This document shows positions 4,086-25,698 of a stretch of DNA of 53,901 nt, in pieces. The DNA lies in assembly GCA_016927285.1 (NCBI GenBank), contig JAFGMZ010000023.1:1-53901 (forward strand), read 5' to 3'. Positions within the stretch are counted from its first letter, which is position 1, and the number at the start of each line of letters is the position of its first letter. Under the pieces are notes generated by a model, which saw only the letters and a program-made list of their open reading frames with translations, was not told where the DNA came from and did not search any database. The DNA comes from Chlorobiaceae bacterium (GTDB taxonomy: Bacteria; Bacteroidota; Chlorobiia; Chlorobiales; Chlorobiaceae). The position numbers and the translations under genes are program-made.

Positions 4086-4499
4086 TCAGTACGGAGAACA
4101 GCGAAAGGAAAAGGTAAAACCGGAATCGTTTCTTCGGGCTTCGACGATTTCAGCATGGCTCCGGATAAGATAAACTCCCCTGCCCGAGGTTTTCATAAGC
4201 CGACAGGCTTCTGACGGATCGGGAAGGTCTTCGGGACTGAACCCGATTCCGCAATCGCTCACGCTGACCAGAAGACCTCTGCCCCCTGCATCTTTATCAA
4301 AGGTCACCGTAACCGGGAGATCCTCCTGTTCGCGGTTCCCGTGAATAATTGCATTGACGAAAGCTTCTTTGACGGTAAGCTCCAGTATTGCCCCGAATTC
4401 CGGACTGTACCCCGATGTACGGCATATATCAAGAATCACGCAGCGCAGTGCGGCATACTCGTTCCACCGGCTTTTCAGCACAATACTGCGGCTTCTCAT
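4086..4499 (-). CDS. RsbW/SpoIIAB-like ATP-binding protein (anti-sigma factor or serine kinase)
   Basis: Single-domain GHKL (HATPase_c_2) protein of 137 residues, the size of RsbW-type anti-sigma kinases. The N-box is ELTVKEAFVNAIIHGN, the G1 box is DCGIGF and the G2 box is GRGVYLIRS, so nucleotide binding looks intact. Members of this family bind a sigma factor or phosphorylate a STAS-domain antagonist. No sigma factor or STAS gene is adjacent; the nearest STAS protein in the window is at 22613-23194. It lies 34 nt upstream of pgi on the same strand and could share its transcript. The partner is unknown. Confidence 0.75.
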   Translation of the reverse strand: MRSRSIVLKSRWNEYAALRCVILDICRTSGYSPEFGAILELTVKEAFVNAIIHGNREQEDLPVTVTFDKDAGGRGLLVSVSDCGIGFSPEDLPDPSEACRLMKTSGRGVYLIRSHAEIVEARRNDSGFTFSFRCSPY

Positions 4500-20914: not shown

Positions 20915-21505
20915 ATGCCAATGATAACTCCGCATCTTATCCTCGCTTCGCAATCGCCAAGAAGACGAGAACTGCTGTCGCTGCTGGGCCTGCCCTTCAC
21001 CACCCTGTCGGTCGGTGCTGACGAAACGTTCGACCCGATAAATAGCATTGAAGAAAACGTGCAGGAAATTGCCATTCATAAAGCGAAAGCCGCTAAAGCA
21101 GCCTATAGAGGAACCGTGCCGGCCGTAATTATAGGTGCTGACACTATCGTCGATCACGGGCACTCCGTTCTCGGCAAACCGTCAGGATACGAAGACGCTT
21201 TCCGAATGCTGCATAATCTGCAGAACAATACTCACAAGGTCCATACCGGTTTTTCCGTAATCTCGGATTCTCATCAGCACTGCGAATGCGTAACGACCGA
21301 AGTAACCTTCGAACCGATTGACGACAGGGAAATCAGGCGCTACATTGAACAAATAAAGCCGTTTGATAAGGCCGGTTCCTATGGCATACAGGACCCTATC
21401 ATGGCCTGTTACGTCCGGCGCATCAAGGGTTGCTACTACAATGTTGTGGGGCTGCCGGTCTCAAGACTCTATCTTGCTTTGAAAAGCTTCATCCCTGGCC
21501 TGTGA
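20915..21505 (+). CDS. maf: Maf-like nucleoside triphosphate pyrophosphatase
   Basis: House-cleaning enzyme that hydrolyses dTTP/UTP or modified nucleotides to monophosphates, implicated in septum control. 196 residues. The start LILASQSPRRRELLSLLG is the Maf signature. ADTIVDHGHSVLGKP holds the catalytic Asp, and DKAGSYGIQDP is the late motif. GIQDP is of the YhdE (dTTP/UTP) type. It is tightly placed between the symporter (1 nt) and miaA (2 nt), so it is part of one transcript. Confidence 0.94.
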   Translation: MPMITPHLILASQSPRRRELLSLLGLPFTTLSVGADETFDPINSIEENVQEIAIHKAKAAKAAYRGTVPAVIIGADTIVDHGHSVLGKPSGYEDAFRMLHNLQNNTHKVHTGFSVISDSHQHCECVTTEVTFEPIDDREIRRYIEQIKPFDKAGSYGIQDPIMACYVRRIKGCYYNVVGLPVSRLYLALKSFIPGL

Positions 21506-21507
21506 TC

Positions 21508-22470
21508 ATGGCCACCAATGAATCCGGAATCCCGGAAAAACAGGTACTTGTTATTACCGGCCCCACAGCATCAGGAAAAAGCGCCCTTGCCCTGAATATC
21601 GCCAGAACGGTTGATGGCGAAATCGTCTCAGCCGACTCCCGGCAGATTTACCGCGAAATCACAATAGGATCGGCAAAACCTTCCGAAGAGGAACTCTGCG
21701 AGATAAGGCATCATTTCATCAACGAAAAATCGATCGGAGAAACATTCACTGCCGGCGAATTCGCATCGGAAGCCTCCGAAAGAATTAGAGCTATTCAACG
21801 AAGGGGAAAATATGCCGTTGTTGTCGGAGGCTCGACCCTCTATATTGAAGGACTGCTTAAAGGCTTTGCTGACCTTCCTCCCGGCGATCCCGAAATACGC
21901 CGTCGGCTTACAGCCGAACTCGACCGGTATGGCAGCGACAAACTCTATGAAAACCTCAGAAAACTTGATCCCGACCAGGCCGAAAAACTTGATGCATCCA
22001 AAACTCACCGGCTTATCCGCAGCCTTGAAATCATAGCCATCACGGGAAAAACCGTAACCGAGCTGCAGCTGAACCAAAATATTCCTTTTCTGAAATTCCG
22101 TACCATCGGACTCAACATGCCCAGAACTCGCCTTTACGAGCGTATCAATATGAGAGTAAATTCAATGATTGATGCCGGACTCTGCAAGGAAGCCGCTTAT
22201 TTATATGAAACATATTATTGCAATAACAGCTCAGGTGATATGAGCGCTCTGAATACTGTAGGTTATAAGGAACTGTTTCATTTCTTTGATGGCCGGACAA
22301 GCTTTGCTGCTGCGGTTACGCTCATTAAACAGCATACCCGCAATTATGCAAAACGCCAGTTGACTTTTTTTAAAAATAGGCTTAATGTTAACTGGGTAGA
22401 CGTTCCTGATGATTCTGCAGCTATGGGAGCATTGATTGCCGAATGTTGCCGTGCTCTGCATGAAGCATAA
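21508..22470 (+). CDS. miaA: tRNA dimethylallyltransferase
   Basis: Transfers dimethylallyl to N6 of A37 in tRNAs reading UNN codons. From ATG 21508 it has 320 residues. GPTASGKSALA (P-loop), SADSRQIYREITIGSAKPS (catalytic Asp/Thr region), VVGGSTLYIEGLLKG, and the late QHTRNYAKRQLTFFK signature are all visible. The open frame begins at 21430 inside maf, but ATG 21508 fits the family. It ends the rightward operon. Confidence 0.96.
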   Translation: MATNESGIPEKQVLVITGPTASGKSALALNIARTVDGEIVSADSRQIYREITIGSAKPSEEELCEIRHHFINEKSIGETFTAGEFASEASERIRAIQRRGKYAVVVGGSTLYIEGLLKGFADLPPGDPEIRRRLTAELDRYGSDKLYENLRKLDPDQAEKLDASKTHRLIRSLEIIAITGKTVTELQLNQNIPFLKFRTIGLNMPRTRLYERINMRVNSMIDAGLCKEAAYLYETYYCNNSSGDMSALNTVGYKELFHFFDGRTSFAAAVTLIKQHTRNYAKRQLTFFKNRLNVNWVDVPDDSAAMGALIAECCRALHEA

Positions 22471-22612: not shown

Positions 22613-23194
22613 ATGAAAAACTCGGTATCGTCCCGCAAAGAGTTGACCATTTTAAAACTTGAAGAGGAGGTTTTCGATTTTCGGCACTCGGCCTGTTTCC
22701 GGCAAACAATCGAAAATCTTCTGCAACAGGAAAACAGCAGAAATCTCATCATCGACTTTACTCAGGTAAAAGCCATTGATTCGAGCGGAATCAGTGCCAT
22801 GCTCTTAGCCCACCAGCTTTCCAATCAGTGCAGAGGACTTGCCATTTTCGTCTCGCTCTGCCAGCAAATAAAGGATATTCTCAAACTCACCAATCTCGAC
22901 AAACAACTCTATATATTTTCTTCCATTAACGAAGTCATGACCCTCATCGAACCCGCAATGAAAAACAAGCGCGGAGGAAGGGGAAAAGCCACCGCAGAAA
23001 TCACCGATGAAACTGCCGATGAGATCTGCGACGAGATACTCGTCATCGACGAAACGATCATCCACGATCTCAGCCTGGATGAAGAGATGACTGACGAAAA
23101 CCCGGAGATCGAAACAGATCCGGAAACCAGTTCATCTGACAAGAACGGCGGACTCCAGAAAAAACGCGGTCGTCCGAAAAAAAACAGCAAGTGA
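22613..23194 (+). CDS. STAS-domain anti-sigma antagonist with acidic linker and AT-hook-like tail
   Basis: 193 residues. Residues 8-115 form a STAS domain with the phosphorylatable motif VKAIDSSGISAML (Ser57/58), as in RsbV/SpoIIAA, which release a sigma factor from an RsbW-type kinase. Residues 116-180 are a charged, mostly acidic linker rich in Asp/Glu/Thr. The C-terminus reads QKKRGRPKKNSK, with the GRP core of an AT-hook DNA-binding motif; a second basic patch, KNKRGGRGK, is at 117-125. A STAS domain with such a tail is unusual. It is a lone gene with 142 nt upstream. The kinase partner could be the protein at 4086-4499. ATG 22613 follows an AGGAAGT site. Confidence 0.82.
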   Translation: MKNSVSSRKELTILKLEEEVFDFRHSACFRQTIENLLQQENSRNLIIDFTQVKAIDSSGISAMLLAHQLSNQCRGLAIFVSLCQQIKDILKLTNLDKQLYIFSSINEVMTLIEPAMKNKRGGRGKATAEITDETADEICDEILVIDETIIHDLSLDEEMTDENPEIETDPETSSSDKNGGLQKKRGRPKKNSK

Positions 23195-23411: not shown

Positions 23412-24569
23412 ATGGCTGCCTTTATTTTCAAACGGAAACTGCAGCTCCTTCTTGAAAATGCCGGTATAACCGTTGACGGCAAGGAACCTTGGGATATTCA
23501 GGTGCATGATGACCGTTTTTTCAAACGGGTGCTGACCGAAGCCCATCTTGGTACCGGTGAATCATATATGGACGGGTGGTGGGATTGCGAAGCTCTCGAC
23601 GATTTTTTCTATCGGGTGCTCCGCAATAGACTGGATAAACAGGTCTCCGGACTCCCCCGCTTCTTAGGTTCGATTGTCGGCAGTATCGTGAACCTGCAGA
23701 ATCCAGGAAGATCGTTCACTGTTGGAGAAACGCATTACAATATCGGTAACGACCTCTACCAGACAATGCTTGACAAGCGCATGATCTACAGTTGCGGATA
23801 CTGGGAAAACGCCCGTAATCTCGATCAGGCACAGGAAAGAAAATTACAGCTGGTTTTCCAAAAACTCAAGCTCGAACCAGGCATGCACATCCTCGATATC
23901 GGCTGCGGTTGGGGAGGGGCGGCCAGATTCGCGGCCGAGCGCTATGGAGCCAAGGTAACCGGGATAACCATATCGACCGAACAGGAACAACTGGCCAGAG
24001 AACGCTGCGCAGGTCTTCCCATCGACATACAACTCATGGACTACCGGGCTCTCTCCGGAACATATGACCGCATATACTCGATCGGCATGTTCGAGCATGT
24101 CGGGCATAAAAACTACCGAGCCTACTTTCAGATGGTCCGCAACTCGCTGAAGCCTGACGGACTCTTTCTCCTGCATACCATCGGAAGCAACCGAACCGGC
24201 ACGAATACCGACAAATGGACAAACCGCTACATCTTTCCCAATTCAATGCTTCCGTCCGCAGACCATATAACCCGATCATCGGAAAGCAAGCTGGTAATTG
24301 AAGACTGGCAATCATTCGGACACGACTACTTTCTTACCCTGAAAGCCTGGAATGACAATATCGAAACGCATCGCACAGCTTTCGGAAGCAGATACAGCGA
24401 TCGCTTTTTCAGGATGTGGCGCTACTATCTGCTCAGCGCTGCTGGTTCATTTCGGGCCCGACATGTCCAACTCTGGCAGGTGCTCTTTTCTCCGTCAGGA
24501 GTAGAAGGCATGTTCAGGGTACCGAGAACCTTATCGGATACGTGCGTTAACAACCCGACAAATCCTTGA
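23412..24569 (+). CDS. cfa: Cyclopropane-fatty-acyl-phospholipid synthase, copy 1
   Basis: Methylates cis double bonds of membrane phospholipid acyl chains using S-adenosylmethionine. 385 residues, the E. coli Cfa length. N-terminal lipid-binding domain with LGTGESYMDGWWDCE, then NIGNDLYQTMLDKRMIYSCGYW (active-site Cys, about residue 128), the SAM motif LDIGCGWGGAARFAAERYGA, and IGMFEHVGHKNY with the catalytic Glu/His and bicarbonate-binding residues. The first of two tandem paralogues, only 10 nt apart. ATG 23412 lacks a clear ribosome binding site. The C-terminal tail after RVPR is a unique 12-residue extension. Confidence 0.95.
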   Translation: MAAFIFKRKLQLLLENAGITVDGKEPWDIQVHDDRFFKRVLTEAHLGTGESYMDGWWDCEALDDFFYRVLRNRLDKQVSGLPRFLGSIVGSIVNLQNPGRSFTVGETHYNIGNDLYQTMLDKRMIYSCGYWENARNLDQAQERKLQLVFQKLKLEPGMHILDIGCGWGGAARFAAERYGAKVTGITISTEQEQLARERCAGLPIDIQLMDYRALSGTYDRIYSIGMFEHVGHKNYRAYFQMVRNSLKPDGLFLLHTIGSNRTGTNTDKWTNRYIFPNSMLPSADHITRSSESKLVIEDWQSFGHDYFLTLKAWNDNIETHRTAFGSRYSDRFFRMWRYYLLSAAGSFRARHVQLWQVLFSPSGVEGMFRVPRTLSDTCVNNPTNP

Positions 24570-24579
24570 AATTCATGCC

Positions 24580-25698
24580 ATGCCGAATAATCGCTTCAAA
24601 AAGCAGCTTGAAACGATATTCAACGCTGCCGGAATCTCCATAGGAGGAAAAGAAAAACATGACGTCCATATATATAACCCTGAAGTCTTTCGCAGAGCGA
24701 TAACTCAAGGAAACCTTGGTCTCGGGGAATCTTATATGAACGGATGGTGGGAGTGTGACGCGATCGACGAATTATTTTACCGGCTCCTCCGTTCACGTGC
24801 CAACGAAAAAGTACAGCCAATTGAAAACATTGCAGGCAAAATTGCCGGACGGCTCTTCAACCTGCAGACAAAGTCCAGATCATTTGTCGTTGGTGAAAAA
24901 CACTACGATACCGGCAACGATCTTTTCAGGGCTATGCTCGACAAACGCATGATATACAGCTGCGGATACTGGAAGGACGTCAATAACCTCGATGACGCTC
25001 AGGAATGTAAACTCAGGCTGATTTTCGACAAGCTCATGCTTGAACCCGGCATGCACCTGCTGGATATTGGTTGTGGTTGGGGAGGTGCCGCCAGATTCGC
25101 CGCTGAACGTTATGGCGTCAAGGTAACCGCCGTAACCATATCGAATGAACAGGCAGTTGAAGCCCGGCAAGCGTGCAAAAACCTGCCGATAACCATTGCG
25201 CTAACGGACTACCGGAACATCGAAGGCTCCTATGACCGCATCTACTCAATCGGCATGTTCGAGCATGTCGGACATAAAAACTACGGCGAATATTTTACCA
25301 CGATAAAACGATGCCTGAAACCAGGAGGACTGAGCCTTCTGCACACTATCGGTGGCAACGAGCCCTGCGTAAATGTCGATCCATGGATATGCCGCTACAT
25401 TTTTCCAAACTCCATGATACCATCTGCAAGCCAGATCACCCGTGCTGCGGAAGGGCTTTTCATATTGGAAGACTGGCACGCTTTCGCATTTGACTACTAT
25501 CTTACGCTTACAGCTTGGCATAAAAATTTCGAAACACATTGGAATACGATAAAAGAACGCCATTCAGAATCCTTCCGCCGCATGTGGAACTATTATCTGC
25601 TGAGCTGCGCAGGAGCATTCAAGGCACGGTCGCTGCAACTCTGGCAGATCCTCTTTTCTGCAGAAGGGCTGACTGGTTCATATCGGGCACCCAGGTAG
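24580..25698 (+). CDS. cfa: Cyclopropane-fatty-acyl-phospholipid synthase, copy 2
   Basis: 372-residue paralogue of the preceding gene, with the same layout and no visible damage: LGLGESYMNGWWECD, GNDLFRAMLDKRMIYSCGYW with the active-site Cys, LDIGCGWGGAARFAAERYGV and SIGMFEHVGHKNYGEYF. Long blocks are identical between the copies, while the N-terminal 30 residues and the region after the EHVGHKNY motif differ more. Both look functional, so the pair is not a recent unselected duplication. They could act on different double-bond positions or transfer different alkyl groups, or be differently expressed. The stop is 6 nt from the convergent NamZ gene. Confidence 0.94.
   Translation: MPNNRFKKQLETIFNAAGISIGGKEKHDVHIYNPEVFRRAITQGNLGLGESYMNGWWECDAIDELFYRLLRSRANEKVQPIENIAGKIAGRLFNLQTKSRSFVVGEKHYDTGNDLFRAMLDKRMIYSCGYWKDVNNLDDAQECKLRLIFDKLMLEPGMHLLDIGCGWGGAARFAAERYGVKVTAVTISNEQAVEARQACKNLPITIALTDYRNIEGSYDRIYSIGMFEHVGHKNYGEYFTTIKRCLKPGGLSLLHTIGGNEPCVNVDPWICRYIFPNSMIPSASQITRAAEGLFILEDWHAFAFDYYLTLTAWHKNFETHWNTIKERHSESFRRMWNYYLLSCAGAFKARSLQLWQILFSAEGLTGSYRAPR

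Follow-up and report, generated by a model that had tools for sequence, protein, structure and literature searches.

A SpoIIAA-like STAS protein of Chlorobiales with an AT-hook-like or H1-like tail that may tether it to DNA

Gene 22613..23194 (forward strand, ATG start) of the window, i.e. the whole stretch of 53,901 nucleotides analysed here, codes for a protein of 193 residues in which a STAS domain is followed by a basic patch, an acidic linker and an AT-hook motif. Our best reading, held with slightly more confidence than doubt, is that of a kinase-controlled STAS regulator which its HMGA/H1-like tail would tether to DNA and which is chromosomally encoded throughout the order. Several points appear to count for it: a hook identity of 0.954, the location of all K-RGRP-KK matches in this gene, the exchange of tails between families, an invariant S57 and the precedent of CapS. 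Counting against it are the sub-threshold score of the Pfam AT_hook model and the missing kinase relative in three genomes (G031, G043 and G063).

Organization and predicted fold

The N-terminal part (residues 1-115, 22613..22957, forward strand) corresponds to a STAS domain with a predicted SpoIIAA-like fold. In a Pfam profile search, PF01740 covered residues 9-107 with 50.2 bits for a cut-off of 22.6, and a scan of the whole protein with E values up to 10 displayed neither a CarD domain (CarD_CdnL_TRCF) nor a wHTH. The NCBIfam antagonist models remained under threshold (TIGR02886, 41.4 of 114.75 bits; TIGR00377, 41.0 of 53.45). An AlphaFold2 model was built on an alignment of 37 sequences and reached a mean pLDDT of 74.9 and a pTM of 0.59 as a whole. 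Averaged per ten-residue block, pLDDT was 89-96 for residues 1-110, 68 for residues 111-120 and 41-55 thereafter; residues 1-110 are thus modelled as a SpoIIAA-like STAS domain and the tail as disordered. The closest PDB neighbours of this model (4xs5, TM1442 (1vc1), 1tid, 1til and 1th8) were free-standing STAS domains and SpoIIAA, and the TM-scores by target of the top eight matches ranged from 0.80 to 0.86. STAS domains of SulP/SLC26 transporters also matched, at lower ranks.

The first serine of the DSSG motif (S57, codon 22781..22783, forward strand) is the predicted phospho-acceptor. It aligned with DSSG of SpoIIAA in 1th8_B and with DASG in 1tid_B, which has an alanine at this position; the available part of PMC13373217 likewise gives Ser58 of 1TID as alanine. 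According to the accessible text of PMC3517971, SpoIIAA is phosphorylated on Ser58 in B. subtilis and on Ser57 in B. sphaericus. S57 was invariant in all copies from the window's family (84/84) and in all orthologues from other families (12/12), i.e. in 96/96. The PF01740 score and the alignment of S57 with the SpoIIAA phospho-serine agree with the first-pass annotation, which had described a STAS core with a normal phosphorylation motif (IDSSG).

The segment beyond the STAS domain is 78 residues long and is composed, on the forward strand, of the basic patch MKNKRGGRGK (residues 116-125, 22958..22987), a disordered linker of 57 residues (126-182, 22988..23158), the AT-hook motif KKRGRPKK (183-190, 23159..23182) and a terminal NSK. 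The acidic character of the linker, claimed earlier, was recovered, but the "about 65 acidic residues" of that claim are in fact 20 D/E, accompanied by one K/R, within these 57 positions. KKRGRPKK displays a GRP core with K/R flanks inside a region of low pLDDT (41-55), as is the case for AT-hook/HMGA-like motifs. The Pfam AT_hook model scored 13.5 bits on residues 183-192, a single ten-residue match under the cut-off of 17.4.

Examination by eye further suggested that a short acidic-hydrophobic motif recurs inside the variable linker (residues 126-150 in the window's protein; L034-L045). It reads DEIIDELLCDDLDLI in several members of the window's genus and is LLSEIPEI-like in other families, and it is perhaps a short binding motif.

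Distribution and conservation of the hook

The survey covered 98 genomes of Chlorobiales, and the class comprises the same 98 genomes. The protein was matched in 96 of them and strongly in 95, the weak match (E 1.1e-5) occurring in G009 (88% complete); the two genomes devoid of a match are 85% and 77% complete. Extension to stop codons yielded 107 proteins, distributed over the window's family (84), other families (12) and a set of diverged paralogues (11). The 84 copies originated from 83 genomes, two of them being cut at the N-terminus, and a second copy in G095 was left out.

The first-pass annotation had proposed a search for the same architecture in relatives, and had named an absent or non-basic tail in close orthologues as the observation that would speak against it. 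No such tail was encountered within the window's family: the RGRP of the KKRGRPKK motif that the annotation had recognized was kept in 83/84 copies, and the exception (L107) retained a basic C-terminal stretch. Mean pairwise identity in this family was 0.954 for the hook, 0.805 for the STAS domain and 0.355 for the linker. The 83 hook copies were encoded by 65 different DNA 24-mers, and 73 of them read exactly KKRGRPKK. Judging from these sequences, the hook is under strong selection at the protein level. Residues K117 and R120 of the basic patch were conserved in 84/84 copies of the window's family; other families mostly displayed acidic or other residues there.

A degenerate DNA pattern for K-RGRP-KK gave 80 matches in 79 of the 98 genomes, all of them inside the STAS match or at most 130 bases from it. 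The reversed control pattern gave 15 scattered matches in 13 genomes (counted from the table). The architecture with an RGRP hook is far beyond chance.

Two alternative origins were considered and rejected. Chance or artefact as the source of the hook was ruled out by its conservation together with its codon variation. A fragment of a SulP transporter was ruled out by the standalone STAS domain with its own start, by the SpoIIAA-type structural neighbours and by the presence of SulP-sized proteins at other loci. The single-contig genomes G016 and G020 contained just two PF01740 matches each, namely the hook protein and a SulP-sized open frame of 630-637 residues.

Tail exchange, ancestry and paralogues

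RGRP was found in none of the orthologues from other families (0/12). These proteins retained the acidic linker and ended in a K/A/S-rich stretch; the net charge of their last 30 residues ranged from +4 to +14, the median being +12.5. By sequence resemblance, these 12 genomes carry a lysine-rich, histone H1-like tail in place of the AT-hook. A tree of the STAS part was computed with 13 of the 84 hook copies, the 12 sequences of other families, the 11 paralogues and 20 sequences from the phylum, and was rooted at its midpoint. Hook copies and paralogues formed a single clade (100/100) at the end of a long branch, within a grade of H1-like-tailed sequences, and some forks beside the midpoint root had support below 95/80. 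Since the hook clade is nested in this grade, the H1-like tail looks ancestral.

The 11 paralogues (L054-L064, from 11 genomes of the window's genus) nested inside the hook clade (100/100). They had lost the phospho-serine in 10/11 cases, the following glycine in 11/11 and RGRP in 9/11. No miaA-like gene was present in the examined flanks of any of them, and the four paralogue neighbourhoods that were listed differed in part and gave no functional clue. The paralogues are possibly a constitutive or decoy form.

Outside the class, 20 loci of the phylum were picked from the search matches with a preference for longer open reading frames, and are therefore not a random sample; the STAS protein was tailless in 15 of them and had an acidic tail in the other 5. 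In family f5 (L201-L204) this acidic tail ended in PRKRK or TRRR. In family f35 (L205), the acidic tail was very long and lacked a basic end. Acidic tails may thus predate the hook, or may have several origins.

Candidate kinase and genomic context

The candidate kinase partner is an RsbW-like GHKL protein encoded at 4086..4499 on the reverse strand of the window (PF13581, 69.4 bits). Relatives were matched in 95/98 genomes and strongly (E 5e-11 or better) in 93, of which 90 also contained a counted STAS copy; the match in other families may be a different paralogue. The GHKL E..N box occurred in 30/30 RsbW loci examined. The spacing between both genes was computed initially on 34 hand-picked genomes, and subsequently on all 93 genomes in which the kinase match was strong. 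Wherever genomes of the window's family had both on one contig, the kinase lay 14-37 kb upstream of the STAS gene on the opposite strand (31/31), a spacing that may reflect general gene-order conservation only. The two genes were on different contigs in 58 genomes and 387 kb apart in G086.

No relative of this kinase was found in G031, G043 and G063, and matches were weak in G008 and G051; all five genomes keep the STAS protein. The broader PF13581 model, which matched in 98/98 genomes (96 over cut-off) and also in control genomes such as E. coli, gave a strong match in G043 and weak ones in G031 and G063. In the 20 kb upstream of the STAS gene of G031, none of the window genes from the first 28 kb was matched, and in the upstream region of G043 matches were limited to the genes nearest the STAS gene (from a 738-residue gene to miaA). 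It remains plausible that the STAS protein pairs with the RsbW encoded at 4086-4499.

The neighbours of the STAS gene are presumably SSS, maf, miaA, cfa and DUF1343-like genes. The gene that we take to be miaA-like (21430..22470, forward strand) recurred upstream of the STAS gene across loci: in 12/12 loci of other families (non-adjacent in L036) and, within the examined flanks, in 54/84 loci of the window's family. Just downstream of the STAS gene stands a tandem methyltransferase-like pair (23412-24569 and 24580-25698), which we take to resemble cyclopropane-fatty-acid synthase. At least one relative of this pair was located near the STAS gene in 71/84 loci of the window's family (counted from the listing). 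A function deduced from the neighbours was considered and abandoned: relatives of these genes recur, and no mechanism follows from them.

Sigma factors and phosphatases

The role of anti-sigma antagonist attributed to the protein by the first-pass annotation was not supported as stated, in view of the sigma factor and phosphatase content of these genomes. Sigma-70 region 3 was displayed by exactly one protein in 94/98 genomes, that of the window included, in a count of region-3 matches that leaves ECF sigma factors outside and that a diverged region 3 could escape. It was absent in three genomes (77-87% complete) and occurred twice in G042. The second region-3 sigma factor of G042 (G042:C65:624-854, 110 bits) was recorded in this single genome and is possibly a contamination. 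Since 94 of the 98 genomes have exactly one region-3 sigma factor, a target of the sigma-B/F type was not seen.

A SpoIIE-type PP2C phosphatase was found in 66/98 genomes. It was not found in the other 32, among which are the window's genome (85.6% complete) and the single-contig genomes G002, G016 and G020. PF13672 occurred in 1 of 21 hand-picked genomes and in none of these four; the PP2C searches consisted of the SpoIIE-type and PF13672, with PF00481 outside their scope. All 12 genomes of other families possess the SpoIIE-type phosphatase, so a canonical phosphorylation cycle is possible there.

Comparison with known systems

In the accessible parts of two sources (PMC4374960, PMC9304148), CarD of Myxococcus xanthus is described as a folded protein-binding domain followed by an acidic segment and by RGRP AT-hooks in a disordered tail, and some of its orthologues as carrying an H1-like tail instead of AT-hooks. 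As far as these texts go, the protein described here has the same order of parts (folded domain, acidic segment, RGRP hook) and the same AT-hook/H1 exchange. Yet CarD has its own RNA polymerase-binding domain (CarD_CdnL_TRCF), its partner CarG and three or four hooks, in contrast to a STAS domain and one hook here. By analogy, the 193-residue protein would work like CarD in its tail, and it is not a member of the CarD group. Because AT-hook and H1-like tails are exchanged here as in CarD, it is presumably DNA contact that is kept, and not contact with one specific protein.

CapS is the closest precedent for the control of such a protein. The available portion of PMC13373217 presents it as a protein in which a STAS domain is joined to a DNA-binding part, a GHKL kinase phosphorylates a conserved serine, and the STAS protein is itself the repressor; phosphorylation splits the dimer and frees the DNA. 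Both proteins, as far as that portion tells, associate a STAS domain and a conserved serine with a DNA-binding part (putative here) and a GHKL kinase (a candidate here). CapS differs, within the same portion, by its C-terminal winged helix and its location beside immune operons, and CapK by its HTH-STAS-GHKL organization, whereas we found a disordered HMGA/H1-like tail, an order-wide gene and a candidate kinase consisting of a bare GHKL domain. CapS is a direct precedent in which a GHKL kinase controls a STAS-DNA-binding protein (PMC13373217, in the part available).

With SpoIIAA/RsbV, the protein shares the STAS fold and the position of the phospho-serine. SpoIIAA-type antagonists consist, in the part of PMC13373217 at hand, of a single STAS domain. 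A further difference is that neither a SpoIIE-type phosphatase nor a target of the sigma-B/F type was found in the 85.6%-complete genome of the window.

Proposed mechanism and competing explanations

In the mechanism that we favour, the RsbW-like GHKL kinase (4086-4499 in the window) would most likely phosphorylate S57 and thereby switch the SpoIIAA/RsbV-like STAS domain, and this phosphorylation would change the partner or the dimer state of the protein while it is on DNA. The parts of this scheme differ in strength. Judging from its motifs, the basic tail quite probably binds DNA. That RsbW is the kinase of S57 is also likely, to a lesser degree. More tentatively, and with a probability that we would place under one half, phosphorylation of S57 could alter recruitment or release of partners by the DNA-bound protein or else decide, by analogy with CapS, if a two-hook STAS dimer remains on DNA. 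The acidic linker is probably a flexible spacer and would rival DNA as a ligand of the basic end. Two points weigh against the scheme: each chain has a single hook, and an AT-hook on its own is a weak binder; moreover, the ligand of the basic tail could instead be RNA, RNA polymerase or the acidic linker.

The rival with the strongest claim, although an unlikely one in our estimation, is an ordinary anti-anti-sigma factor acting through an RsbW anti-sigma factor on a sigma factor, with a tail that tunes solubility, stability or position only. The fold, closest to free-standing STAS, TM1442 and SpoIIAA structures, would suit such a factor, as would the invariant phospho-serine S57, the strong RsbW relative in 93/98 genomes and the SpoIIE-type phosphatase in 66/98, all 12 genomes of other families included. 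It fits poorly with the single region-3 sigma factor of 94/98 genomes (ECF sigma factors being outside this count), with genomes in which SpoIIE-type phosphatases (32/98) or PF13672 (20/21 hand-picked) were not found, and with the fact that the hook is the best-conserved segment of the protein.

Two other explanations keep a function for the basic end but dispense with DNA. Binding of RNA, or of the transcription or translation machinery, is improbable in our view. RNA is a conceivable ligand for H1-like and RGRP tails, which are polybasic, and the miaA-like gene upstream (12/12 loci in other families, 54/84 in the window's family) would fit; yet a housekeeping neighbour is weak evidence of a shared mechanism, and 83/84 copies conserve an exact RGRP core, suited to the AT minor groove, instead of just any polybasic run. 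Still less is to be expected of an intramolecular switch in which the basic end folds onto the acidic linker or the STAS phospho-site without any nucleic acid, a reading to which we give very little credence. An acidic linker and a K/R-containing end do co-occur in the orthologues examined, but the hook is almost invariant next to a variable linker (35.5% identity), and RGRP is unnecessary for charge pairing alone.

The DNA-tethered regulator being retained as the preferred reading, a more specific version can be sketched for the PP2C-free genomes, that of the window included, although we consider it rather unlikely in its full detail. A reduced partner switch, devoid of sigma-B/F and of phosphatase, would consist of the RsbW-like kinase and of one nucleoid-bound, HMGA/H1-tailed STAS protein, order-wide. 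In this chromatin-style phospho-switch, phosphorylation of S57 would decide whether the STAS dimer offers two hooks or one, and hence how firmly it grips AT-rich promoters or the nucleoid.

Conclusion

Partner-switching proteins have mostly been described via anti-sigma factors; here, an HMGA/H1-type tail accompanies a STAS protein order-wide. Among the open-access papers searched, none was found on a STAS domain together with an AT-hook, nor on a bacterial AT-hook in Chlorobium, nor on anti-sigma factor antagonists of Chlorobium or Chlorobaculum tepidum. AT-hook together with anti-sigma factor antagonist led, among these papers, to one on WhiB7 of Mycobacterium abscessus. Each part has a precedent, and the order-wide combination of STAS and an HMGA/H1-like tail was not found among the open-access papers searched. 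This study provides a testable function for a green sulfur bacterial gene for which no paper was found there.

If the tail binds DNA, the protein would represent, together with CapS, a second independent route by which SpoIIAA-SpoIIAB logic is wired straight to DNA and, together with CarD, a second AT-hook/H1 exchange on a bacterial regulator. The tailed STAS protein is kept across the order, while no target of the sigma-B/F type was found and about a third of the genomes lack a SpoIIE-type phosphatase. Its long disordered tail, with a DNA-grip motif of the chromatin type, suggests that a SpoIIAA-type switch may act directly on the chromosome and not only on sigma factors.
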